A stretch of DNA of 64,000 bases. Source: Arenimonas caeni. Lineage in GTDB: Bacteria; Pseudomonadota; Gammaproteobacteria; Xanthomonadales; Xanthomonadaceae. The notes beneath the pieces are model-generated. The model worked only from the letters and a program-made list of their open reading frames with translations, did no database searches and was not told the origin of the DNA. A program made the translations under genes and the position numbers. Below, one piece after another: positions 6,952 to 36,001 of the stretch (positions are counted from its first letter, which is position 1; each line of letters begins with the position of its first letter). The stretch is from assembly GCF_003024235.1 (NCBI RefSeq), contig NZ_KZ679084.1, positions 460,684 through 524,683 of the forward strand, in the 5' to 3' direction.

Positions 6952-7009
6952 GTGAACTGCGTCACAGCCTCGGGTGACCAAAAGTGACCCTTAGCGTCAC
7001 TTTCTGACA
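6952..7009. promoter_or_regulatory. Candidate PilR upstream activating sequences
   Basis: About 95-150 bases before the pilA -24/-12 element lies a cluster of GTGAC-type half sites on both strands: GTGAACTGCGTCAC (6952-6965), GTGAC (6974-6978 and 6984-6988), GTCAC (6996-7000) and TGACA (7005-7009). Repeated half sites at this distance are typical enhancer architecture for NtrC-family activators. Assignment to PilR rests on position only; the motif was not scored against known PilR sites. Confidence 0.5.
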
Positions 7010-7104
7010 ACCCCCGCGAAATTCGTGGCCTGTGTCCCGATTTCGGCTGGCCTTGCGTTGTTCCTTGTGCCTATATTCCGGCCTGTGCCACACCTTTCGA
7101 GGCT

Positions 7105-7120
7105 TGGCACAGTTGATGCT
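7105..7120 (+). promoter_or_regulatory. Sigma-54 promoter of pilA
   Basis: TGGCACAGTTGATGCT matches the -24/-12 pattern TGGCAC-N5-TTGCW, with GG at 7106-7107 and GC at 7118-7119 exactly 10 bases apart. Transcription should start near 7131, giving a leader of about 83 bases before the pilA ATG at 7214. It fits the upstream PilR enhancer-binding protein and the half-site cluster at 6952-7009. Confidence 0.88.
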
Positions 7121-7213
7121 TCACCGATACAGCACGTGCTTCGGCACGGCTACCCAAGGACGGGATATCCGTTCGAAGACGTGACAATCACAATCCACCT
7201 AGGGGATTTACCC

Positions 7214-7630
7214 ATGAAGAAGATCCAGAAAGGTTTCACCCTGATCGAACTGATGATCGTGGTCGCGATCATTGCCATCCTGGCCGCCATCGCGCTGCCG
7301 GCGTATCAGGACTACATCGCCCGCTCGCAGGTCACCACCGGCCTGGCCGACATCCGTGGCGGCGTGACGGCGTTTGAGGAAATCATCAACCGCGGCACCC
7401 CGTCGACCTATACCAACGTCGACATCGGCCTCGCCGCGACCACGACCCGCTGCGCTCCGATCACCGTCACTCCCGGTGCGGGTGGTTCCATCTCTTGCGC
7501 CCTGGAGGGCAACCCCAAGGTCAGCCCGCACAGCATCACGCTGACCCGTAATTCGGCCACCGGCACCTGGGCTTGCACCGCAAGCGCCGCTCTTGATCCG
7601 AAGTACCTGCCGAACGGCTGCACGCAGTAA
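7214..7630 (+). CDS. pilA: Type IV major pilin PilA (first copy)
   Basis: Structural subunit of the type IV pilus. The ATG at 7214 gives the class III leader MKKIQKG; PilD should cut after Gly7, leaving Phe +1 (methylated) and Glu +5. The hydrophobic N-terminal helix spans about residues 8-34. The precursor is 138 residues (131 mature), short for type IVa pilins. Four cysteines (80, 95, 121, 136) could form two disulfides, the last one closing a C-terminal loop YLPNGC. In-frame codons upstream of 7214 precede the sigma-54 promoter and are not part of the protein. Glycosylation by island products is inferred only. Confidence 0.96.
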
Positions 7631-7646
7631 TAGTTGGATTTGGGCC

Positions 7647-7677
7647 GGGGCGCTGTCGGTCTATCCGGCTGCGCCCC
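7647..7677 (+). terminator. Strong hairpin between the two pilin genes
   Basis: GGGGCGC-T-GTCGG pairs with CCGGC-T-GCGCCCC around a 5-base loop, 17 bases after the pilA stop. There is no T tract behind it (GTACCCC follows), so it may act as a 3' stabilising or attenuating structure rather than a full terminator. Partial read-through would set the ratio of the second pilin to the first. Confidence 0.5.
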
Positions 7678-7820
7678 GTACCCCAGAAAGACGATAGAAG
7701 TAGAACTACTCCAAAGTATCTTCAAGAGCGCAGGCAGATTCAGGGGACGGAATTGCAGCGCCCCGCAGTCGAGATGTCACTCAGCAACTCTGACAGTCCA
7801 GCGGGCTAGGGGGCCACGCC

Positions 7821-8228
7821 ATGCGCATGACGAAGGGCTTTACGCTCATTGAGTTGATGATCGTTGTAGCGATCATCGCCGTCCTCGCGGCGATTGCCAT
7901 CCCCGCCTATCAGGACTACAACATTCGAGCGCAAGTGGCTGCGGGACTTGCTGACATTACGGGCGGCAAACCCCTCTACGAGAGTCAGGTCATCGCCCTC
8001 AGCTCTACGACTTTCAATATTTCCGACATCGGCTTGCGAAGCACCACCACGCGCTGCAGCAATATATCGATGGACCCTAATCCGACCGCCGGCTATATCC
8101 AGTGCATTTTGGCTGGAAACCCGAATATAGCAGGCAGCTATATTCGTCTTGAGCGAAGCAGCGCAGGCGTCTGGAGCTGCAGGTCAGACATCGCTACGTC
8201 CCGCTACCTACCTGAAGGCTGCTACTGA
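7821..8228 (+). CDS. Second type IV pilin-like protein
   Basis: A 135-residue prepilin paralogous to the preceding pilin: leader MRMTKG, cleavage after Gly6, Phe +1, Glu +5, and a nearly identical hydrophobic helix through IPAYQDY. The mature part diverges but keeps the same four-cysteine plan (79, 95, 120, 134) and the landmarks [11 protein letters not shown] and YLPEGC. No sigma-54 site was seen in the 190 bases before it, so it probably depends on read-through from pilA. The gene is visibly less GC-rich than pilA, suggesting different origin or age. It may be an alternative major pilin, a minor subunit or a glycosylated variant. Confidence 0.9.
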
Positions 8229-8289
8229 CCGTCCCGGGACGCGACCCAGAGGCGCCTGGAGGTGACCACCCCCTCCCTACCCGTGCTTT

Positions 8290-10257
8290 GTGAGTGACTT
8301 TCGGCCAGAATCCGGGTACGCCGAACCGGATCACGGTATGCACCCTCTCTCTCGCAGCGCCTTTGCATGGTTGCTTTTAATTGCCGCCCTCACTCTATCT
8401 GCGTTTTGGCCCGGCGTAAGCGGCGGATTCCTTTTTGACGATTATCCCAACATCGTCAAACAAGAACGCGTACACATCACCGAACTGACCACTGAAAGTC
8501 TCGCCAGCGCCTGGTCAGCTTTTCCAATTGGTCCGCTTGGACGTCCACTTGCGATGGTGAGCTTCGCGGTCGACCATTATTTCTTTGGACTTGATCCGCG
8601 CGGATACAAGATCACCAGCCTGGCGGTCCACACGGTTAATGCACTACTGGTTTTCTCGCTACTGACGCAACTTCTCAAGATGCGTCACGAAAGGAGCAAC
8701 AACCCACTGATGCCTGCGGCACTGCTTGCAGCGCTTTGGGCGATTCACCCATTGCAGGTCTCGACCGTGCTTTATGTAGTGCAACGGATGGAGATGCTGT
8801 CGATCACCTTCTTGCTGACCGCACTGATTTGCTATCTGCATGGAAGAAGGTTGCAGATGGCGGGAATTCGCGCATGGCCGTGGCTGATTACTTGTCTGCC
8901 GCTGATTGCACTGGGGCTTCTGTGCAAGGAGACCGCCGCGCTATTCCCCGCATTCGCACTTGCGCTGGAACTCACAGTCTTACGTTTTCGTTGCGCCTCG
9001 ACACGAAGCGCAACCATCCTGAAGTGGTCATACGGCATATTCGTCCTCGCTTCAGTTGCGGCACTTTTGCTCCTGGTGCTGCCCCGCTTTGGAAGTCCAG
9101 ACGCTTATGCCATTCGCAGCTTCACGCTCGAAGAGCGCTTGCTAACGCAACTCCGCGTACTGCCGACTTATCTCGCATGGATAGTTATTCCCCAGCCGGC
9201 AAACTACACCTTCTACTACGACACATATCAGTTCTCAACCGGATTACTCTCGCCGCCAACGACACTCCTTGGCGGCCTGTTTCTTGCAGTTCTCGCTTCT
9301 TCAGCGATCTGGCTTCGTAACAGACATCCGATCCTCTCGCTGGGAATTGCGTGGTTCTTCATTGCCCACTCGCTGACCAGCAACATCATCCCACTGGAGC
9401 TCGTATTCGAGCACCGAAACTACTTCGCCATTCTAGGCGTCCTCCTCGCGCTGTTCGCGATAATTGAAGCAGCGCCCCGTGGAGAGATTCCCAGGGTCCG
9501 ATCCGTAGCTGTGACCGTAGTCACGATCGGATTTCTACTGCTGACGATGATTAGGAGCGCCGGCTGGGGCAGCCCGTTGCACTTGGCTCTGGAACTCGCC
9601 GAACGAAACCCTGAATCCTCGAGAGCAAGCATGGACCTCGGGGAACAATACATGCTCCGTGCCGGCCAAGATCCGGACTCACGCTACTACCGGATGGCGC
9701 TCAACGAATTTGAAAGAGGAAGCAACATCCCTGGCTCTTCGCCATTGCTAGAGCAGGGGCTGATCATTCTTGCCCTGACGGCCAACCAGCCCGACAAGGT
9801 CGAATGGTGGGATCGGCTAATCCAGAAGCTAAAGCAAAGGACCGTCGGCCCTCAGGAAGTTTCGATGATCACCGACTTCCTCGCCAAACGGGAGCGAGGC
9901 CTTCCGTTGAACGACGAGAAGTTCGCGGAAGCCTATATGGTGGTAGTAAACAAGGTGAGTATGCCTGCTAGGCAGTACTATGCGATCGGACTGCATGCGC
10001 TCAGGCATCTTGAGGATGAAGCGCTCGCCCATGTGCTCTTCAGCACTGCAGTGAACAAGAGTCTGGACAACCCCACCTTCATTGTCGGAATGGTGGATGC
10101 CCTGAACCGAACCGGCCACGAGAACAGTGCACGGCTGCTGGCACAGCACGCGAATAAGGTGGCGGGCCTGAGAATCCCGGTTCCGCCGACTGTCGAGCGA
10201 CTAAAGCCGCCCTCTGAGATACCTAGCACACCAACCAAACCAAACAGTGAACCATGA
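8290..10257 (+). CDS. TMTC-like multi-spanning membrane glycosyltransferase with helical-repeat tail
   Basis: A 655-residue integral membrane protein with about ten hydrophobic segments up to residue 425, then a soluble helical C-terminal tail (about 430-640) that looks TPR-like. The first periplasmic loop carries Asp50-Asp51 in FLFDDYPNI, then GRPLAMVSFAVD (84-95), His114, AIHPLQVSTVLYVVQRMEML (151-170) and CKETA (212-216). This order matches GT-C proteins related to eukaryotic TMTC O-mannosyltransferases and bacterial relatives near pilin genes. By family it would move a sugar from a polyprenyl phosphate carrier to a protein in the periplasm. The adjacent pilins are the likely acceptors by inference. 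The start is GTG at 8290; ATG at 8338 (residue 17) is an alternative. Confidence 0.75.
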   Translation: MSDFRPESGYAEPDHGMHPLSRSAFAWLLLIAALTLSAFWPGVSGGFLFDDYPNIVKQERVHITELTTESLASAWSAFPIGPLGRPLAMVSFAVDHYFFGLDPRGYKITSLAVHTVNALLVFSLLTQLLKMRHERSNNPLMPAALLAALWAIHPLQVSTVLYVVQRMEMLSITFLLTALICYLHGRRLQMAGIRAWPWLITCLPLIALGLLCKETAALFPAFALALELTVLRFRCASTRSATILKWSYGIFVLASVAALLLLVLPRFGSPDAYAIRSFTLEERLLTQLRVLPTYLAWIVIPQPANYTFYYDTYQFSTGLLSPPTTLLGGLFLAVLASSAIWLRNRHPILSLGIAWFFIAHSLTSNIIPLELVFEHRNYFAILGVLLALFAIIEAAPRGEIPRVRSVAVTVVTIGFLLLTMIRSAGWGSPLHLALELAERNPESSRASMDLGEQYMLRAGQDPDSRYYRMALNEFERGSNIPGSSPLLEQGLIILALTANQPDKVEWWDRLIQKLKQRTVGPQEVSMITDFLAKRERGLPLNDEKFAEAYMVVVNKVSMPARQYYAIGLHALRHLEDEALAHVLFSTAVNKSLDNPTFIVGMVDALNRTGHENSARLLAQHANKVAGLRIPVPPTVERLKPPSEIPSTPTKPNSEP

Positions 10258-10287
10258 ACCGGCCGCAGGAATTCGGGAACTAGAGCG

Positions 10288-11442
10288 ATGAACAAGGACT
10301 TCTTGGTCTTTGCAGCACCGGACATTCAGGAGGAAGAAATCCGAGAGGTCGAGGAGTGCCTCCGTTCGGGCTGGCTTGGAACGGGACCAAGGGTAGCGAG
10401 GTTCGAGAAAGACTTTGCCAGCTACAAGGGCGTCGCACCGGGCCATGTCGCGGCAGTGAACTCCTGTACCGCTGCACTTCACGTGAGCATGGTGGCAGCC
10501 GGCCTTGAACCTGGCTCAGAAGTGATAACGACCCCGCTTACGTTTTGCGCAACTGTGAATGCGATCATCCACGCCGGGCTCACGCCGGTTCTTGCGGATG
10601 TCGACCCTGAAACACTTAACATCAACCCAGATGCGATTGAGGCCGCAATAACCCCAAGGACCAGAGCGATTCTTCTGGTTCATTTCGCAGGCAGACCGTG
10701 CGACATGGATCGGATTATGGCGCTGGCCGAGAGGCACAGATTGGTAGTGATCGAGGACTGCGCACATGCGATTGAGTCGGAGTATCGCGGCAGGAAGACG
10801 GGAACTTTCGGCGACTTTGGCTGCTTTAGCTTCTACGTGACCAAGAACGTAGTGACCGGCGAAGGCGGCATGATAATTGCCAAGAATCTCGAGCATGCGG
10901 GACGCGCACGCATCCTATCCCTCCACGGAATGAGCAAGGATGCGTGGCACCGCTTCAGTGACAAGGGATATCGTCACTACCAAGTCGTGGAATGCGGATT
11001 CAAATACAACATGATGGACGTGCAGGCAGCGATAGGAATTCATCAACTTGCCCGCGTCGAAGCAGCTCTTAGTAAGCGAGAGGCGATTTGGTCTTTGTAC
11101 ATGGATGGCCTCAAGGATCTCCCCATCAAGCCGCCCCCCATCCCTGAAGCGGATACGCGGCACGGACTACATCTCTTCACGATACAGATCGACCCCGGGT
11201 CGGCCGGATTATCACGAGACGATTTCTTGGATGGGATGAACAAGCTTGGTGTTGGCACCGGCGTCCACTACTTATCTGTGCCTGAGCACCCCTACTATCA
11301 GACCAAGTATGGGTGGCGCCCGGAACAGTGGCCAAATGCAATGGATATTGGCCGCCGAATAGCTAGCCTTCCACTTTCACCAAAACTGACAGAGTCGGAT
11401 GCTCGCAGGGTCGTAGAATGCGTCAGGAAATTACTAGGTTAG
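10288..11442 (+). CDS. DegT/DnrJ/EryC1/StrS-family sugar aminotransferase
   Basis: PLP-dependent enzyme of the family that aminates nucleotide-linked keto-sugars. It has 384 residues, with SCTAALHVSMVA (59-70) for phosphate binding, VIEDCAHAIES (154-164) for the cofactor ring, and the Schiff-base Lys186 in FYVTKNVVTGEGG. Fold and length are complete. It follows the GT-C gene by 30 bases on the same strand and overlaps the convergent acyltransferase gene by 4 bases. No nucleotide-sugar dehydratase, epimerase or nucleotidyltransferase is nearby, so its keto-sugar substrate must be made elsewhere. Amino-sugar synthesis for a glycan made by this island is inferred. Confidence 0.88.
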   Translation: MNKDFLVFAAPDIQEEEIREVEECLRSGWLGTGPRVARFEKDFASYKGVAPGHVAAVNSCTAALHVSMVAAGLEPGSEVITTPLTFCATVNAIIHAGLTPVLADVDPETLNINPDAIEAAITPRTRAILLVHFAGRPCDMDRIMALAERHRLVVIEDCAHAIESEYRGRKTGTFGDFGCFSFYVTKNVVTGEGGMIIAKNLEHAGRARILSLHGMSKDAWHRFSDKGYRHYQVVECGFKYNMMDVQAAIGIHQLARVEAALSKREAIWSLYMDGLKDLPIKPPPIPEADTRHGLHLFTIQIDPGSAGLSRDDFLDGMNKLGVGTGVHYLSVPEHPYYQTKYGWRPEQWPNAMDIGRRIASLPLSPKLTESDARRVVECVRKLLG

Positions 11443-12008
11443 GGCTCGCGAACCTGCTTGGCTCCCACGCGCCTGATCGCACGAGCAGGAGACCCTGCGT
11501 AGACAAACCCTCCCGGCAGCTTTGATCTGACCAAGGCCCCTGCGCCAACCACGCTTTGCGCTCCCAGCTCGGCACCCTCGAGAAGGATCGCGCCAGCGCC
11601 GATCCAACAGTCCATCCCAACTTCACAACCGCCCGCGGATGGCGGAAAGTGCTGAGCGAGTGAATTGCCCTGCGAAGCTCCAGGGTCATGATGTGTCAAC
11701 AGGACACAGCGGGCCGAAATGGTCGATCGGTCACCTATGAGAAGCGGGCCAGCCAGGTCCAGAAGCACATCCGGTCCGATATAGACACCCTGGCCGATGC
11801 GCAGGTTGGAAAGACCCAGCTCATGGTTCATGAGTCTGCACCCGTGAATACGAACGCCCCGCCCGATCGAAGCGCCAAGAATGCCGAGCCCAATGGCACG
11901 CCATCTAGGATGGGGCAGCCTCGAAACAACCCCCCACGCCAAGACTCTCGCCGCGATGACTAGCGCCTTTGCTTTCAACCTTGCATTCTCCTCGACGCAA
12001 GCAGCCAC
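11439..12008 (-). CDS. Left-handed beta-helix (hexapeptide repeat) O-acyltransferase
   Basis: A 189-residue LbH acyltransferase resembling the maltose acetyltransferase/WbbJ/NodL group, which transfers acetyl from acetyl-CoA to sugar hydroxyls. Hexapeptide turns run from about residue 48 (IGRGVRIHG, IGQGVYIGP, IGDRSTIS) to VGAGALVRSKLPGGFVYAGSPAR near the C-terminus. LLTHHDPG supplies the candidate catalytic histidine. It is the last gene of the five-gene minus-strand operon and overlaps the upstream flippase gene by 34 bases. Decoration of the island's glycan is inferred. An N-acyltransferase acting on the aminotransferase product cannot be excluded. Confidence 0.85.
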   Translation of the reverse strand: MAACVEENARLKAKALVIAARVLAWGVVSRLPHPRWRAIGLGILGASIGRGVRIHGCRLMNHELGLSNLRIGQGVYIGPDVLLDLAGPLLIGDRSTISARCVLLTHHDPGASQGNSLAQHFPPSAGGCEVGMDCWIGAGAILLEGAELGAQSVVGAGALVRSKLPGGFVYAGSPARAIRRVGAKQVREP

Positions 12009-12889
12009 ATCGCCCCTACGATGGCGGAAACGACGTCAAGGAGCAGGAGCCAAATGCGGCCATAGATTGCGAGCAACAACAAACTTTTCGTCGGAAGAGG
12101 CCAAGGTAGCGTCTCTAGCCAAATGAACGCAGCTTCACGAACTCCCAGTCCCGCAGGCAGCAATGAGAGAAGTCCAAGAACGATCGATGCGGACGAAAGA
12201 CCGTAAAGTGAGAAGGACTCTTCAAGCGGGTACCCCAGCCACAGTGAATAGACAGAAAGCCAAGCCAGGCAACCCGATATCCCCAACAGTGCCGTCCAAA
12301 GGACAAGTTTGGGCGGATCAAATGCAATCGCGATACCCTTGATCCTGCCACTTCCGAGCCTGGCGACAGCTGCCATCGTGACCCGAAGCGCCGCCAGGAG
12401 CAAAAGCGGCATGACCATAATGAACGCGATTAGGCCGGGCCAACTGAGCATAAAGTACGTTGCGCACGCAAAGAAGCCACCCAACTGCGCGAGCATGAGG
12501 CACAAGAAAACCGAAAGATTGCCCGACATTAGATCGGGGAGCGTTGCCTTTTGGCCGAATATGATCTTTTGCATCAGAAGCGCCCACACTCGACCTGGAA
12601 CGTACTTCGCAAGCTGGGAAACAAGGAACACAGCAGGCGCGCTCTTATTCGCCGGCGCCACTGCACCGAAGGTGGACCTGAAGCAGTGGGCCGCTATGAA
12701 GAGTTGCATTAGCCCGAAGACAACTGCCACTACCAGTCCCCACCATCGCCCCTCGGGCGGCCACCACAGGAAATTCTGCGGTAACGACATGGCCACCTGC
12801 CACAGTGAGCCAAATGCGATCGCCGTGATGATTGCCCCTGCGCCATACTTGGCAATCTGCCAGTGGCGTCTACTCACAGGCCTAGTCAC
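11975..12889 (-). CDS. Flippase-like membrane protein (LPG synthase TM / AglD family)
   Basis: A 304-residue integral membrane protein with about seven to eight hydrophobic helices, of the UPF0104/lysylphosphatidylglycerol-synthase transmembrane family. Recognisable segments are FLVSQLAKYVPGRVWALLMQK (about 88-108) and LLSLLPAGLGVREAAFIW (about 242-259). Family members occur in glycan clusters and some are proposed to move polyprenyl-linked sugars across the membrane. Its start overlaps the upstream GT4 stop by 4 bases (ATGA), so translation is probably coupled. A role in presenting a lipid-linked sugar to the GT-C enzyme is inference. Confidence 0.8.
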   Translation of the reverse strand: MTRPVSRRHWQIAKYGAGAIITAIAFGSLWQVAMSLPQNFLWWPPEGRWWGLVVAVVFGLMQLFIAAHCFRSTFGAVAPANKSAPAVFLVSQLAKYVPGRVWALLMQKIIFGQKATLPDLMSGNLSVFLCLMLAQLGGFFACATYFMLSWPGLIAFIMVMPLLLLAALRVTMAAVARLGSGRIKGIAIAFDPPKLVLWTALLGISGCLAWLSVYSLWLGYPLEESFSLYGLSSASIVLGLLSLLPAGLGVREAAFIWLETLPWPLPTKSLLLLAIYGRIWLLLLDVVSAIVGAMWLLASRRMQG

Positions 12890-14019
12890 GAGTGACCTCG
12901 CATCAATTCAATTATTCTCTGCGCGGCTCCCTCAGGTCTGAATAGCTTCAGGCATCGAGAAAGCTCACTTTCATCATGTCCATCTTGGAAGCTCGCCCTT
13001 ATTGCATCTGCAAATTCGACCGCAGAGACCCCCGATGCGACCCACCCCATTCCCGGCCTTATAAGTTCAGGAATATCGCCGACAGGCATTGACACTATCG
13101 GCAGCGCTGCACAAAGCGCATCCGAAAACACGACTGGTATGCTTTCAATGCGAGATGGCAGTAGCAGTCTGTCTGCCCGCCCAAGCGCTCGCGAAGCCTC
13201 TGCAGAGTTCAGGTACCCGCTCAAGCGAATAGGCCGCCCGGCGCGCGACAGCGCCTCAACACCTGCTCTGACAACGGGCTCAAGCGGACCTCCGCCAGCG
13301 ATATGAACCTCCTCGATCAAGGTCCAATCTTCTTCATTTAGCAGCTTCAACGCCTCCAGTAGAAGGTCCGTACCCTTGTTGAAGTGCCAGCGTCCAAGAT
13401 AGAGAAGCCTGAAGGGAGCTCTGTTTCTGGCCGGAGCGTGACGGACAACCTTGAGACTCCTTGAGCTCGGAAGGAAGTCGAAGGGCGCACCCGTAAAGGA
13501 CTCCGCGTCTCTGGCTAACTGAAATCCATCCGCGAAGCGCCACATCGCACTCCTCGACACCTTGGCCAACAGGGGTCCAACCAACGGGACTCTTGCCAAG
13601 GCCCAGATGTCACTTCCGAGCGCCCAAACGGAATAGGGCACTGCATGACGCTTAGAAACAATCCTTGCGGCCCACCCTGATGGCAGGATCCAGAGAGCCA
13701 GAACATGCGCGACGCGGCCATCGCGGCTAGCCGCGAGTGATTGCCGTCGTAGCGAAAATAGTGCCACAGCAATCGCGGGCCAGTGCCAAGGCTTGGCCGG
13801 GGAAAGAAGTGACAGCGGCCTTGATCCAGCAGCGAAGCGCCAGACATGACCCCCTGAAGCACCTTCGATGCGCTCGGATCTGCCTGGAGCCACCACTCGC
13901 ACGGGCGATTTTTTTGAGAGCTCGCGGACAAAGTCAGCTACAAACGAACCCGCCGCCTCGCTCCCGTCTGCGGAGGAGGGATACGACGTTGTTATAACAA
14001 GGATCACATCCTTATCCAT
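12886..14019 (-). CDS. Glycosyltransferase family 4 protein
   Basis: A 377-residue GT-B fold glycosyltransferase, retaining type, probably cytoplasmic. The C-terminal nucleotide-sugar domain is clear: LLYLGRWHFNKGTDLLLEAL, VHIAGGGPLEPVV, and RIESIPVVFSDAL followed by ALPIVSMPVGDIPELI; the second acidic residue of the usual EX7E motif is Asp. The ATG at 14017-14019 (MDKDVILVITTSYPSS) was chosen because the first beta strand follows at once and it overlaps the upstream methyltransferase stop by 8 bases; a Met 14 codons upstream is less likely. Donor and acceptor cannot be read from the sequence. Confidence 0.88.
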   Translation of the reverse strand: MDKDVILVITTSYPSSADGSEAAGSFVADFVRELSKKSPVRVVAPGRSERIEGASGGHVWRFAAGSRPLSLLSPAKPWHWPAIAVALFSLRRQSLAASRDGRVAHVLALWILPSGWAARIVSKRHAVPYSVWALGSDIWALARVPLVGPLLAKVSRSAMWRFADGFQLARDAESFTGAPFDFLPSSRSLKVVRHAPARNRAPFRLLYLGRWHFNKGTDLLLEALKLLNEEDWTLIEEVHIAGGGPLEPVVRAGVEALSRAGRPIRLSGYLNSAEASRALGRADRLLLPSRIESIPVVFSDALCAALPIVSMPVGDIPELIRPGMGWVASGVSAVEFADAIRASFQDGHDESELSRCLKLFRPEGAAQRIIELMRGHS

Positions 14020-14722
14020 TCGGCTTACGAAGTTCGACTTGAATCCCGGAGGAGAGTCCACGCCAAGGGAACCACAACTTGGAAATCAACCAACTTCCGA
14101 CATTGATCAACAAAATCAATGGCAGGGCGACCGGGGCTACCAGCAAGGCTCTCCAAGCCCCGATCGCCCCCAACGGACCAGCTAAGGCTAGGCAGGCCAT
14201 TAGCCCTGCTGATTCCACTGCTGACCCTGTTTCCTCTACCTGCACCGACTCAAGGCCATGAAGCTTGATGCTTCGCTCCCAGCCATGCCTGGTCCAACGC
14301 TGATAGTCATGGGGCGCATCATGGACAGGGTAGATGAAGGGCATTGACAAACAGGCCCGTCCATTTGGGCGCAGCACTCTCGAGACCTCTCGGAGTAGGG
14401 ACTCAGGATCCCTAACGTGCTCTATCACCTCCAAGCAGACCACTAAGTCAACGGAATTACTTCGTACAGGAAGAGACGCCGCGTCCGCGAGAATATGAGG
14501 CCGCGCCCCATAAAGGCTCAAAGCAGTCCTTGGGTAGTCCAGTGCGACATATTTTGCTTCGGGTGGAACGAGCCTCTCGATCCAGCGATCACCAGCTCCG
14601 ATGTCCAGGACGACTCCCTGAGCGACTCGCACAGCACCTGGCGCCTTGCGCGGGCCCAACAACCACTGAGGATGCAGCGGTGTCCGCCGCGCAATACCCA
14701 GGATGGCACGCAGGTGACTCAC
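14012..14722 (-). CDS. Class I SAM-dependent methyltransferase with C-terminal hydrophobic anchor
   Basis: A 236-residue protein. Motif I VVLDIGAGDRW (37-47) and the later VDLVVCLEVIEHV define a class I SAM methyltransferase of the type 11 group. After the catalytic fold come two hydrophobic stretches (about 170-215), suggesting attachment to the inner membrane, where lipid-linked sugars are made. It overlaps its neighbours on both sides (4 bases with the GT2 gene, 8 with GT4). The substrate is not identifiable; methylation of a sugar or lipid-linked intermediate is a guess from context. Confidence 0.8.
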   Translation of the reverse strand: MSHLRAILGIARRTPLHPQWLLGPRKAPGAVRVAQGVVLDIGAGDRWIERLVPPEAKYVALDYPRTALSLYGARPHILADAASLPVRSNSVDLVVCLEVIEHVRDPESLLREVSRVLRPNGRACLSMPFIYPVHDAPHDYQRWTRHGWERSIKLHGLESVQVEETGSAVESAGLMACLALAGPLGAIGAWRALLVAPVALPLILLINVGSWLISKLWFPWRGLSSGIQVELRKPNG

Positions 14723-15579
14723 TGGCGCGAGGTACGGTTATAGGTGAGCGAGGTTATCTGCTCGGAGATCAGGCCTATCAGGAACACGATTACCGCCGCG
14801 CTGAAGAGCAACGCACTCATGTTGGTGAATCTTCCGTAGCTTAGATATGTGAAAATGTAGTAGCTCGCACCGAGCACAAAGAACCCTCCTCCGACGGGCA
14901 CAAAGAGCTTTAGTGGCGAGTACAACGTGGCGATCTTGAATATGATCAGAAGAAACCGAATGCCGTCTTTCAACGGTCGGATATGACTTGCGACACCTAC
15001 CCGCCTGCTGACGCGCGAGGGCACATAGGCCACTGGGTAGGCACTGCGGAAGAAAGCCATGGTGCTGGTCGTGGGATAGCTGAACCCATTTGGCAGCAAA
15101 TGAAGGAATTCACGAAAAAGGTCCGCGCGAACAGCCCGGAAGCCCGATGTCAGGTCAAGGATCGTGTGGCCGGTCATCCATGAGGCCAGCTTGTTGTACA
15201 AGCGGTTCGCTAGGCTTCGCCCGAGGCTGGCCTGGCCAGAGCCATCGCGAGCGCCAACCACCATGTCGTAACCCTCGTTGAGCTTGTCTAACAACCCCTG
15301 AATTTCCAACGGATCGTGCTGCCCATCGGCATCCATGAAAACCAGTACATCCCCATTGGCAGCACGAGCCCCCCGCTTGATGGCCGCCCCATTGCCCATC
15401 GAGTAGGGCGAACTCAACACACGAGCACCAGCCGCGCGGGCGACGGCAGCGGTCTGGTCGGTTGACCCGTCGTCCACCACGATCACCTCGGCCTCCGGCA
15501 GCACCCCGGCGATGGCCGGCAGTGTCCGCCGCAGCCCCTCGGCCTCGTTCTTGGCAGGGAGGATGATGCTGATTTTCAT
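14719..15579 (-). CDS. Polyprenyl-phosphate glycosyltransferase-like GT2 protein
   Basis: First gene of the minus-strand island operon. Its 286 residues begin with a GT-A domain similar to dolichol-phosphate mannosyltransferase: ILPAKNEAEGLRRTLPAI (6-23), VVDDGSTDQ (34-42) and the metal-binding DADGQHD (83-89). Two to three hydrophobic helices follow (about 205-275). Such enzymes transfer a hexose from a nucleotide donor to polyprenyl phosphate on the cytoplasmic face. That makes it a natural partner for the GT-C enzyme at 8290, which would need such a donor. Chemistry and partnership are inferred from family. Confidence 0.87.
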   Translation of the reverse strand: MKISIILPAKNEAEGLRRTLPAIAGVLPEAEVIVVDDGSTDQTAAVARAAGARVLSSPYSMGNGAAIKRGARAANGDVLVFMDADGQHDPLEIQGLLDKLNEGYDMVVGARDGSGQASLGRSLANRLYNKLASWMTGHTILDLTSGFRAVRADLFREFLHLLPNGFSYPTTSTMAFFRSAYPVAYVPSRVSRRVGVASHIRPLKDGIRFLLIIFKIATLYSPLKLFVPVGGGFFVLGASYYIFTYLSYGRFTNMSALLFSAAVIVFLIGLISEQITSLTYNRTSRQ

Positions 15580-15711
15580 GAATTCCCCGGATCCAACTGA
15601 TTCTGGGGTACTTTACACGGACGCCCGCCGGCGTGGACCGGGGCCCGAGGGGCTGGCCGGGACGCTGTTTTGGGTTAGAGTGGCCGCGATGGCGCGGCTC
15701 GGGGAGGATGG

Positions 15712-17436
15712 GTGAACGCCAACGCAACTGCCAACCTGGTGGGGATCACCGGCATTGCCCGGCGCTTGGTGCTGGACGGCCACCTGGCCGAGGCGGACGC
15801 GCGCAAGGCACTGGACGAGGCCACCAAGGCCAAGCAGCCGGTCCACAAGTACCTGCTGGAAAAGAAGCTGGCCAGCTCGGCCCAGATCGCCGGGGCCAAT
15901 GCCGTCGAGTTCGGCATGCCCCTGTTCGACGCCACGGCGCTCGACCTCAGCCAGGCCGCCACCAAGCTCGTCAGCGAGGAGCTGATCAACAAGCACCAGG
16001 CCCTGCCGCTGTTCAAGCGCGGCAACCGGCTATTCGTGGGCATCTCCGACCCCACCAACACCCGCGCCCTGGACGAGATCAAGTTCGCCGCCAACCTCAC
16101 GGTCGAGCCGATCCTGGTCGACGAGGACCGCCTGCGCCGCATCATCGAACTGGCCCTCACGGCCAGCGACGCGATGGACTCGGGCATGGGCGACGACGAG
16201 GGCCTGGAGAACCTCGAGTCCAGCTCCGGCGACGATGAACCGGCCGACAACCTGGCCGACGCCAAGGGCGGCGACGACACCCCGGTGGTGCGGTTCGTCA
16301 ACAAGGTGCTGCTCGATTCGATCAAGCGAGGCGCCTCGGACATCCACTTCGAGCCCTACGAAACCGAATACCGGGTGCGCCTGCGCATGGACGGCATCCT
16401 GCGCACCGTGGCCAAGGCCCCGGTCAAGCTGCACCCGCGCATCACGGCCCGCCTGAAGGTCATGGCCGCCCTCGACATCGCCGAGCGCCGCCTGCCGCAG
16501 GACGGCCGCATCAAGCTCAACATCTCCAAGACCAAGCAGATGGACTTCCGCGTGTCCACCTGCCCCACCCTGTTCGGCGAGAAGGTGGTGCTCCGCCTGC
16601 TCGACGGCAGCGCGGCCAAGCTGGGCATCGACAAGCTGGGCTACGAGGAAGACCAGAAGCAGCTCTACCTCGACGCCTTGGCCAAGCCCTACGGCATGAT
16701 CCTGGTCACCGGCCCCACCGGCTCGGGCAAGACGGTGTCGCTGTACACCGGCCTGAACATCCTCAACACCGACGAGCGCAACATCTCCACCGCCGAAGAC
16801 CCGGTCGAAATCCGCGTCGCAGGCATCAACCAGGTGCAGATGAACCCCAAGAAGGGCATGACCTTCGCCGCCGCCCTGCGCAGCTTCCTGCGCCAGGACC
16901 CGGACGTGATCATGGTCGGCGAGATCCGAGACCTCGAGACCGCCGAAATCGCCGTCAAGGCGGCCCAGACCGGCCACCTGGTGCTCTCCACCCTGCACAC
17001 GAACGACGCCCCGCAGACGGTGTCGCGCCTGATGAACATGGGCATCGCGCCCTACAACATCACTTCCTCGGTGACGATCATCATCGCCCAGCGCCTCGCG
17101 CGCCGCCTGCACGACTGCAAGAAGCCGGTGCAGCTGCCCGAGAACGCGCTGCTGGCCGAGGGCTTCACGCCCGAAGAAATCAAGGAAGGCATCACGCTCT
17201 ACGAGCCGGTCGGCTGCGACGACTGCAACGACGGCTACAAGGGCCGCGTGGGCATCTACCAGGTAATGCCGATGGCCGAGGGCATCCAGAAAATCATCCT
17301 CGAGGGCGGCAATGCCCTGCAGATCGCGGAGGCCAGCCGCGCGGCCGGCGTGCGCGACCTGCGGCAATCCGCCCTTTGGAAGGCCAGGCAGGGCGTCACC
17401 AGCCTGGCTGAAGTCAACCGCGTGACCAAGGACTAA
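15712..17436 (+). CDS. pilB: Type IV pilus extension ATPase PilB
   Basis: Hexameric cytoplasmic ATPase that powers pilin polymerisation. It starts at GTG 15712, preceded by the Shine-Dalgarno GGGGAGGAT; 574 residues. The N-terminal MshEN/T2SSE_N domain covers about 10-150. The core has Walker A GPTGSGKT (334-341), Asp box AEDPVE, Walker B VIMVGEIRD (399-407) and His box TGHLVLSTLHT (420-430). The zinc region is atypical: only three cysteines are present (469, 502, 505) and LHDC replaces the usual first CxxC, so His467 may be the fourth ligand. pilC follows after 3 bases. It restarts core, GC-rich sequence after the island. Confidence 0.97.
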   Translation: MNANATANLVGITGIARRLVLDGHLAEADARKALDEATKAKQPVHKYLLEKKLASSAQIAGANAVEFGMPLFDATALDLSQAATKLVSEELINKHQALPLFKRGNRLFVGISDPTNTRALDEIKFAANLTVEPILVDEDRLRRIIELALTASDAMDSGMGDDEGLENLESSSGDDEPADNLADAKGGDDTPVVRFVNKVLLDSIKRGASDIHFEPYETEYRVRLRMDGILRTVAKAPVKLHPRITARLKVMAALDIAERRLPQDGRIKLNISKTKQMDFRVSTCPTLFGEKVVLRLLDGSAAKLGIDKLGYEEDQKQLYLDALAKPYGMILVTGPTGSGKTVSLYTGLNILNTDERNISTAEDPVEIRVAGINQVQMNPKKGMTFAAALRSFLRQDPDVIMVGEIRDLETAEIAVKAAQTGHLVLSTLHTNDAPQTVSRLMNMGIAPYNITSSVTIIIAQRLARRLHDCKKPVQLPENALLAEGFTPEEIKEGITLYEPVGCDDCNDGYKGRVGIYQVMPMAEGIQKIILEGGNALQIAEASRAAGVRDLRQSALWKARQGVTSLAEVNRVTKD

Positions 17437-34918: not shown

Positions 34919-36001
34919 TCAGCGCACCTTCAACGTGGCCAGGCCGACCAGCACGAGCATCACCGAGATGATCCAGAAGCGCACGATCACGCGCGGCTCC
35001 GGCCAGCCCTTGAGCTCGAAGTGGTGGTGGATGGGCGCCATGCGGAACACGCGGCGGCCGGTGAGCTTGAAGCTGGCGACCTGGATCATCACCGACAGCG
35101 TCTCGATGACGAAGATGCCGCCCATCAGCACCAGGATCGCCTCCTGGCGCACGATCACGGCGATGGTGCCGATCACCGCGCCCAGCGCCAGTGCGCCGAT
35201 GTCGCCCATGAACACCATCGCCGGATAGGTGTTGAACCACAGGAAACCCAGCCCGGCGCCGGCGATGGCCGCGCAGACGATGGTGATCTCGCCCGCGCCC
35301 GGGATCGACGGGATCTGCAGGTACTCGGAAAACACCGCGTTGCCCGAGGCATAGGCGAACACGCCCAGCGCGCCGGCCACCAGCACCGTCGGCATGATCG
35401 CCAGGCCGTCGAGGCCGTCGGTCAGGTTGACCGCGTTGGAGAAGCCGACGATCCAGAAGTAGGCCAGCACCACGAAGCCCGCGCCCAGCGGGATCGCGAA
35501 GTCCTTGAGCAGCGGCAGGAACAGCGTGGTGTTGTTGGCGTGATCGGCGGTGAAGAACAGCACCAGCGCCGCGGCCAGGCCGAACAGCGACTGCAGCGCG
35601 TACTTGTGCCGCGACTTCAGCCCGTTCGGGTCGCGCCGGACGATCTTGATCCAGTCGTCGAGCCAGCCGATGGCGCCGAAGGCCAGCATCACCGCCAGCA
35701 GCACCCAGACGTAGCGGTTGCGCAGATCGGCCCAAAGCAGCGTCGACAGGGCGATGGTGAGCAGGATCAGCGCGCCGCCCATGGTCGGCGTGCCGGCCTT
35801 GGAGAAGTGGCTCTGCGGGCCGTCGCTGCGGATCGGCTGGCCGCCCTTGAGCCGGGCCAGGCGGGCGATCACCCGCGGGCCCAGCCACAGCGAGAGCAGC
35901 AGCGCGGTGAGCGCGCCGAGGATGCCGCGGAAGGTGATGTAGCCGAACAGCGGCGGCATCCACCCCATCTCGTGCAGCCAGCGGGCCAGTTCAAGCAGCA
36001 T
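34919..36001 (-). CDS. mraY: Phospho-N-acetylmuramoyl-pentapeptide transferase
   Basis: Integral membrane enzyme that forms lipid I from undecaprenyl phosphate and UDP-MurNAc-pentapeptide. 360 residues, ten helices. Family signatures are [17 protein letters not shown] (the Asp pair), [13 protein letters not shown] and [11 protein letters not shown], with MAPIHHHFE near the C-terminus. The start at 35999-36001 ([14 protein letters not shown]) overlaps murF by 11 bases. Confidence 0.98.

Follow-up and report, generated by a model that had tools for sequence, protein, structure and literature searches.

What do glycan genes do inside a type IV pilus locus? In Arenimonas caeni (assembly GCF_003024235.1, contig NZ_KZ679084.1, positions 460,684 to 524,683; this 64,000-nucleotide stretch is the window, and positions below count from its first letter), eight genes lie between the pilin gene pilA1 (7214–7630) and a plus-strand gene at 15712–17436 that, from sequence and context, we take to be pilB. 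They encode a second pilin (PilA2), a GT-C glycosyltransferase, a DegT aminotransferase, a left-handed β-helix (LbH) acyltransferase, a flippase-like protein, a GT4, a methyltransferase, and a GT2. An earlier inspection of the letters alone (the sequence-only reading) had named these eight types, and all were found where it had put them. It had also described the block as lower in guanine plus cytosine (GC) than both flanks, which the profile bears out: GC per kb is 0.55–0.59 at 8.0–15.5 kb and 0.64–0.78 outside the transition zones (0.569 for the island versus 0.679 for the flanking core genes). Judged by gene content and by comparison with relatives, the block is probably a pilin-glycosylation cassette, in which a GT-C resembling the TMTC and PMT enzymes would use a polyprenyl-monophosphate glycan built by an exchangeable set of genes.

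The GT-C gene (8290–10257, plus strand; GTG start, a later start being possible) keeps company with a pilin wherever its locus was examined in the family and near kin. Searching 297 family genomes yielded relatives in 149; the 80 regions with a listed place in these were retrieved, along with 10 further loci. After four duplicates were dropped and L034, in which the GT-C runs off the contig, was left out, 86 loci remained (79 regions, six further loci, and the window), among them L032 and L033, which we assume to be Wenzhouxiangella, and L035, presumably Dyella, near kin and not strictly members of the family. At all 86 a pilin gene lies near the GT-C gene on the same strand (less than 500 bp away at 85, 519 bp at one), and at 45 there are two upstream pilins within 2.5 kb. 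In the class, a 60-sequence profile recovered GT-C relatives from 112 of 369 genomes and 90 of 272 genera. Of the 29 best-scoring class loci, 18 have a pilin in flanks of about 1.5 kb, compared with none of 20 epimerase loci in A. caeni itself. Among 20 long class stretches, hand-picked from these 29 and therefore non-random, 13 carry a same-strand pilin within 700 bp of the GT-C gene, and 12 carry, on the same strand and within 400 bp of it, a GT2 50–65% identical to that of the window (L233, whose adjoining GT2 is only 25% identical, was left out of this count). Pilin, GT-C, and GT2 thus often form one unit beyond the family. In two class stretches, L223 and L234, the GT-C stands beside a GT2 but the 20 kb contain no recognized pilin, and some other protein may serve as acceptor.

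This linkage bears directly on the idea of an O-antigen or exopolysaccharide locus placed in the pilus gene cluster by chance. GT2, GT4, DegT, and methyltransferase families are common to such loci, but a pilin neighbor at every one of the 86 is hard to reconcile with chance. Pfam families were tallied for 118 island proteins (GT-C, GT2, and pilin left aside, and one of 119 listed proteins dropped as an open reading frame [ORF] antisense to a GT2); the 25 most frequent, which the tally covers, include no Wzy family, and 10 rarer ones lie outside it. Moreover, on contig C2 of the same genome about 1.2 kb separates a WecA/MraY-type gene from one for a Polysacc_synt_2 dehydratase, an arrangement like that of polysaccharide loci. 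Because of the pilin linkage and a likely locus of the undecaprenyl-diphosphate (Und-PP) type elsewhere in the genome, we judge this explanation most improbable.

What kind of enzyme is the GT-C? At E 0.01 the window protein itself matches nothing in Pfam, NCBIfam, or the PDB. Its family was examined in an alignment of 60 GT-C proteins (A1, hand-picked from the window protein and 102 candidate ORFs, without the over-long ones; a further alignment, A3, took in 9 of 13 candidate ORFs). Residues D50, D51, R85, H114, Q165, R166, K213, D311, E374, H375, R376, and N377 are invariant. The acidic pair D50–D51 lies in the first outer loop and aligns with the DE of PMT-family relatives; a KE motif (K213 in 60 of 60, E214 in 58) and an RP motif (R85 in 60, P86 in 45) follow the pattern of the clan, and a later motif, EHRN (E374–N377), is present in all 60 and followed by Y in 49. 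The TMTC1–4 and PMT protein O-mannosyltransferases likewise have a first-outer-loop DD, RP, KE, and a later conserved E/R motif (PMC7801869, which also mentions uncharacterized prokaryotic TMTC homologs). Their last motif, ERxxY, resembles EHRN without being identical to it, and the island GT-Cs differ further in being pilin-linked and in that none of the 60 matched a TMTC Pfam family at E 0.1. PMT_2 was matched by 2 of the 60. Of the C-terminal TPR repeats typical of TMTCs there are signs in part of the family, with TPR_19 matched by 15 of the 60, the window GT-C itself having no TPR match at E 0.01; Wzy_C was absent among the 24 Pfam families matched by the 60 at E 0.1. The label “TMTC-like” in the sequence-only reading draws its support from the conserved motifs and a weak profile similarity. 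The agreement of the catalytic motifs with the TMTC/PMT clan is counted in favor of glycosylation.

The neighboring genes can be read as making and delivering the glycan. GT2 (14719–15579, minus strand; Pfam GT2 112.1 bits; C-terminal hydrophobic stretches) is of the polyprenyl-phosphate glycosyl synthase type: its nearest NCBIfam model is AglJ, an archaeal lipid-phosphate sugar synthase (122.7 bits versus a cut-off of 325, so below the curated threshold), and its PDB matches include ArnC-type enzymes and DPMS. It would put a sugar on polyprenyl monophosphate at the cytoplasmic side. The DegT/DnrJ aminotransferase (10288–11442, plus; Pfam DegT 417 bits), for which the top PDB matches are named ArnB-type and the nearest NCBIfam models are ArnB-type (358.8 bits) and PseC (325.7 bits), both below their cut-offs, would convert a keto sugar nucleotide, provided by other parts of the genome, to an amino sugar. 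Such a supply is plausible, given that rmlA, B, C, and D stand side by side in the genome (read by eye) and that it encodes a Polysacc_synt_2 dehydratase (322 bits). The LbH acyltransferase (11439–12008, minus; Pfam Hexapep 50 bits; nearest NCBIfam WcaF-type, 70.6 bits versus a cut-off of 192) may then cap the amino sugar with an acyl group, the GT4 (12886–14061, minus; Glyco_trans_1_4 69.6 bits; alternative start possible at 14019) would join it to the lipid-linked sugar, and the methyltransferase (14012–14722, minus; dependent on S-adenosylmethionine by family, Methyltransf_11 59.2 bits), whose C-terminal hydrophobic stretch (residues 171–218) suggests a membrane protein, would contribute a methyl group.

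An LPG_synthase_TM-like membrane protein (11975–12889, minus) would bring the lipid-linked glycan to the periplasm. Neither Pfam nor NCBIfam matches it directly at E 0.01, and it was placed through the profiles of its relatives: a profile made from cluster 7 alone recovers the cluster of the window protein, the cluster 7 representative scores 27.2 bits against PF03706 (below the cut-off of 33.4), and PF03706 is matched by 13 of the 118 island proteins at 1e-5. Compared with 14 island proteins, the window protein is 17–25% identical, and Q92, P98, G99, P245, G247, V250, R251, E252, F255, and R278 are invariant. Finally, the GT-C would move the glycan onto a serine or threonine of PilA2 (7821–8228, plus; type IVa, Pfam Pilin 61.9 bits, N_methyl 35 bits), perhaps also of PilA1 (plus strand, left flank; type IVa, Pfam Pilin 73.8 bits). 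The earlier proposal that these genes make, decorate, and flip a lipid-linked sugar and attach it to a pilin agrees with the gene set and with the pilin neighbor at all 86 loci; its attachment step stands as a prediction.

Do the relatives keep the same parts? GT2 and flippase were judged at 35 loci, as in 50 of the 86 the island extends to the limit of the retrieved sequence, and another ends at pilD. GT2 precedes pilB in 31 of the 35: 26 by gene calls and five more by tblastn (L053, L059, L061, L062) or with an intervening pilin (L093, in the order GT2, pilin, pilB). All 31 complete islands with glycan genes have a flippase candidate, LPG_synthase_TM-like or Polysacc_synt-like, with one tagged kind each in 26, four found by profile, and L110 by Pfam (PF03706, 42.1 bits); several of these assignments rest on a profile or a Pfam score below the cut-off. 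GC is below that of the flanks in 32 of the 35 islands, the window included, sometimes slightly, and such a dip is thus usual at this site. A DegT of the window type (>65% identity) occurs at 13 loci, always with a GT4 and an LPG_synthase_TM-type protein. At least one capping-type gene accompanies it in 11 of the 13 and exactly one in 10: the LbH acyltransferase in the window and L097, a GNAT-type gene in six, an ATP-grasp-like gene (Pfam below the cut-off) in three. L047 carries both GNAT and LbH, whereas L039 and L110 have none of the three capping clusters. The DegT islands thus fit one amino sugar with exchangeable caps, a chemistry suggested by the gene families.

A simpler chemistry has to be weighed at this point. 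The GT-C could move single sugars from polyprenyl-phosphate-sugar to the pilin, tandem GT-Cs adding successive ones, while GT4, DegT, LbH, and methyltransferase act otherwise. Four islands, L105, L106, L109, and L033, consist of GT-C genes and pilins only (with the pilins of L033 located on the pilB side of GT-C), 22 of the 86 loci have at least two GT-C genes, GT2 adjoins GT-C in the 12 class stretches mentioned above, and TMTC and PMT enzymes take a lipid-phosphate monosaccharide (PMC7801869), all of which would suit it. The frequency of GT4-type proteins (Glyco_trans_1_4 matches in 31 of the 118 island proteins) is hard to square with the transfer of monosaccharides only, and we regard this stepwise course as unlikely, if worth keeping in view. 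In L109 (4189–12351), three GT-C genes are found, with one pilin between GT-Cs and no other sugar gene called before pilB.

A second alternative leaves the transfer to another enzyme: a Wzy_C/PglL-type oligosaccharyltransferase encoded elsewhere would supply the pilin with a glycan from Und-PP, the GT-C adding a side sugar. The genome does encode two Wzy_C proteins, which could be other ligases or oligosaccharyltransferases, and has three WecA/MraY-type matches; both Wzy_C matches lie outside the window, however, the pilin-linked enzyme is the GT-C, and the 25 most frequent families of the island proteins include neither Bac_transf nor Glycos_transf_4. The absence of any match to the Bac_transf phosphoglycosyltransferase in the genome was likewise counted for the polyprenyl-monophosphate cassette, and the alternative appears improbable. 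One of the WecA/MraY-type matches (PF00953, C1:495833-496390, minus strand) is at 35150–35707 of the window, away from the island.

Those Wzy_C and WecA/MraY-type genes are among several results that count against the cassette as proposed here. In bacteria, polyprenyl monophosphate does not usually bear more than one sugar. Set against nine PMT-family proteins, the GT-C profile scores weakly (probability 30%, E 5.5e-4), although the acidic and lysine motifs pair up, and among the 60 of 89 PDB matches listed for that profile there are chains with TPR or other helical repeats but none named as a GT-C. Serine plus threonine is not enriched in pilins beside a GT-C (0.219 versus 0.208 at sites lacking the island; p 0.34). 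Seven of the 20 class stretches lack a same-strand pilin within 700 bp of the GT-C gene, and in four of these no same-frame pilin motif was found. The sequence-only reading had named the occurrence of its genes away from pilins, in an O-antigen role, as a finding that would speak against it; for the GT-C gene, the only one followed in this respect, no such case was seen in the family, but the seven class stretches just mentioned lack the close pilin. Lastly, the co-variation of GT-C and pilin described next can come partly or wholly from linkage.

Does the GT-C change along with the pilin? Over 66 loci, GT-C distance correlates with that of the variable part of the nearest upstream pilin (Mantel r 0.51; partial 0.50 given PilR) and less with PilR (r 0.23). 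At 35 loci with two pilins, r is 0.77 for the proximal and 0.79 for the distal pilin versus 0.26 for PilR. Median pairwise identity over 35 loci falls from 0.76 (GT2) and 0.71 (PilR) to 0.36 (GT-C) and 0.29 (variable part of the pilin). If GT-C and pilin had no action on each other and were only carried along in one exchanged segment, such figures could arise too: adjacent genes that recombine co-vary anyway, and the interval is exchanged. Against that explanation, island gene content correlates with GT-C at just r 0.14 (and with PilR at r −0.01), both values being blunted because only 24 of the 66 islands are complete, and pilin and GT-C are neighbors in other families of the class as well (the 13 of 20 stretches above). 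Linkage by itself seems a very unlikely account.

How does the interval look where the GT-C is missing? Twenty-one genomes without a GT-C match (the first listed) were searched for pilB; 20 matched, some by paralogs only, and 17 were fetched. Three of these pilB-anchored stretches end too early (L208 and L213 show GT2 beside pilB; L217 is short), leaving 14 informative ones, in which tblastn found neither GT2 nor GT-C. The pilin adjoins pilB in 11 of the 14, counting as empty L216, which has two small ORFs in between, and unrelated genes occupy the interval in three. From these empty and alternative sites, the pilA–pilB interval looks like one at which pilin-modification genes come and go. In L203 (4093–7980) and L214 (10710–15761), a GtrA-type protein, a flavin amine-oxidase-type protein, and an unassigned protein of 632–658 residues lie between pilin and pilB, with an epimerase in addition in L214; the 632-residue protein of L203 was considered as a same-site relative of the GT-C and rejected (BLASTP against the window GT-C, E 0.99). 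L215 (3964–7854) has a sulfatase-family protein and a spermine-synthase-domain protein there, possibly for some other pilin modification.

The edges of the block were mapped by nucleotide alignment of the window with 13 loci of the same genus, 12 of which cover the left side and seven the right. Strong similarity ends on the left at 7332–7395, inside pilA1, in 8 of 12, and at 7576–7631, near the end of pilA1, in the other 4. On the right it resumes at 14576–14753 in 6 of 7 and at 14298 in L039, in the methyltransferase–GT2 region; between the edges there are scattered weaker matches, chiefly to pilA2, GT-C, and, if present, DegT. Because strong similarity among congeners resumes before or at GT2, which is about 65–83% identical where present in the fetched regions, this gene is assigned to the conserved right-hand flank. 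Sharp edges within conserved flanks fit homologous recombination. A mobile island was considered and rejected, as no integrase or transposase was among the 25 most frequent families of the island proteins. Three statements of the sequence-only reading are borne out here: that the interval holds little or variable DNA in relatives (11 of 14 empty, 3 of 14 with other genes, and cassettes that differ in content), that no mobility gene is evident (no mobility family in that tally), and that exchange goes by homologous recombination in the flanks, with which the sharp edges agree. Plasmid and phage records contained no GT-C relative at E 1e-5. One record filed under a Rhizobium metagenome-assembled genome, JAIBEO010000198.1 (L027), matches like a contig of the window's genus, and its label is probably wrong. 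The inner genes would then be exchanged between strains through recombination in the sucCD–pilSR–pilA and GT2–pilB–pilC flanks, changing the coat of the pilus while the machinery stays constant. Many relatives have the block in other versions at the corresponding site, which gives it the look of a so far unnamed means of altering the pilus surface.

Is such a system known? The island is a variant of pilin-linked GT-C systems such as TfpW, the glycosyltransferase that adds D-arabinofuranose (D-Araf) to group IV pilins of Pseudomonas aeruginosa/paraeruginosa (PMC11841053, PMC12369383). As those reports describe it, TfpW too is a GT-C-family gene directly downstream of the pilin in an exchangeable pilin cassette, with a terminator after the pilin where the island has a hairpin after pilA1; its Araf genes lie in a separate region, RGP80, whereas, in a comparison made by description, the island has synthesis and flippase genes beside the pilin and GT2 in the unit. 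The three-component GtrA/GtrB/Gtr systems (polyprenyl-phosphate-ribose synthase, MATE flippase, GT136; PMC11127046) likewise combine a lipid-phosphate sugar synthase, a flippase, and a GT-C, which stand together in the window as judged by gene family and profile. They decorate polysaccharide; the acceptor of the island is probably pilin, and it has extra glycosyltransferases and tailoring enzymes. In TfpO, TfpM, PglS, and PglL (PMC12645811), pilin is also glycosylated by a linked or general membrane enzyme, but these carry WaaL/O-antigen-ligase-type domains, in contrast to the island GT-Cs, none of which (0 of 60) matched Wzy_C. TfpO and TfpM act on a C-terminal serine or threonine of the pilin, whereas the window pilins end in Q and Y (C-terminal S in 15 and T in 6 of 149 called pilins). 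Xanthomonas vesicatoria BNM 214/216 has an EamA transporter gene and two glycosyltransferase genes beside a pilin, likewise in the pil cluster but, unlike the island, between pilB and pilC (PMC10333488). No description of a TMTC-like pilin GT-C or of this island was recognized in the titles and abstract beginnings of the open-licence literature, which is no proof of absence. We tentatively propose, as a bolder and doubtful extension, an unnamed TMTC-class protein O-glycosylation across Gammaproteobacteria, in which the GT-C would move a preassembled oligosaccharide en bloc from polyprenyl monophosphate to type IV pilins, by archaeal-like logic, and the middle of the locus would be swapped like a capsule-type locus, giving the same pilus different sugars. 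If true, an uncharacterized GT-C family, present in half of the sampled family genomes and near one third of the class genomes, and adjoining pilins in most examined members, would be the bacterial counterpart of the TMTC enzymes and a fresh enzyme source for attaching sugars to proteins; the locus would also hold a natural record of pilus-coat switching at a single site, testable against pilus-binding phages.

How might the block be expressed? One σ70-type promoter was found at 7000–15900, versus 3.2 in shuffles. A σ54-type site (consensus TGGCAC-N5-WTGC) lies at 7105–7119 on the plus strand, 94 bases 5′ of pilA1, as the sole exact match in the window; matches with at most one mismatch are not enriched (6 versus 11.8 expected), and its exactness and position alone speak for the site. 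Downstream of pilA1, a strong hairpin (7639–7687, plus strand) may serve as a transcript attenuator; it has no T run and is absent from the terminator scan, and the fold of 7628–7710 has −37.3 kcal/mol (z −4.5; 0 of 200 shuffles as good). A terminator 3′ of the pilin gene is described for pilin-accessory cassettes of P. aeruginosa and other bacteria (PMC11841053).

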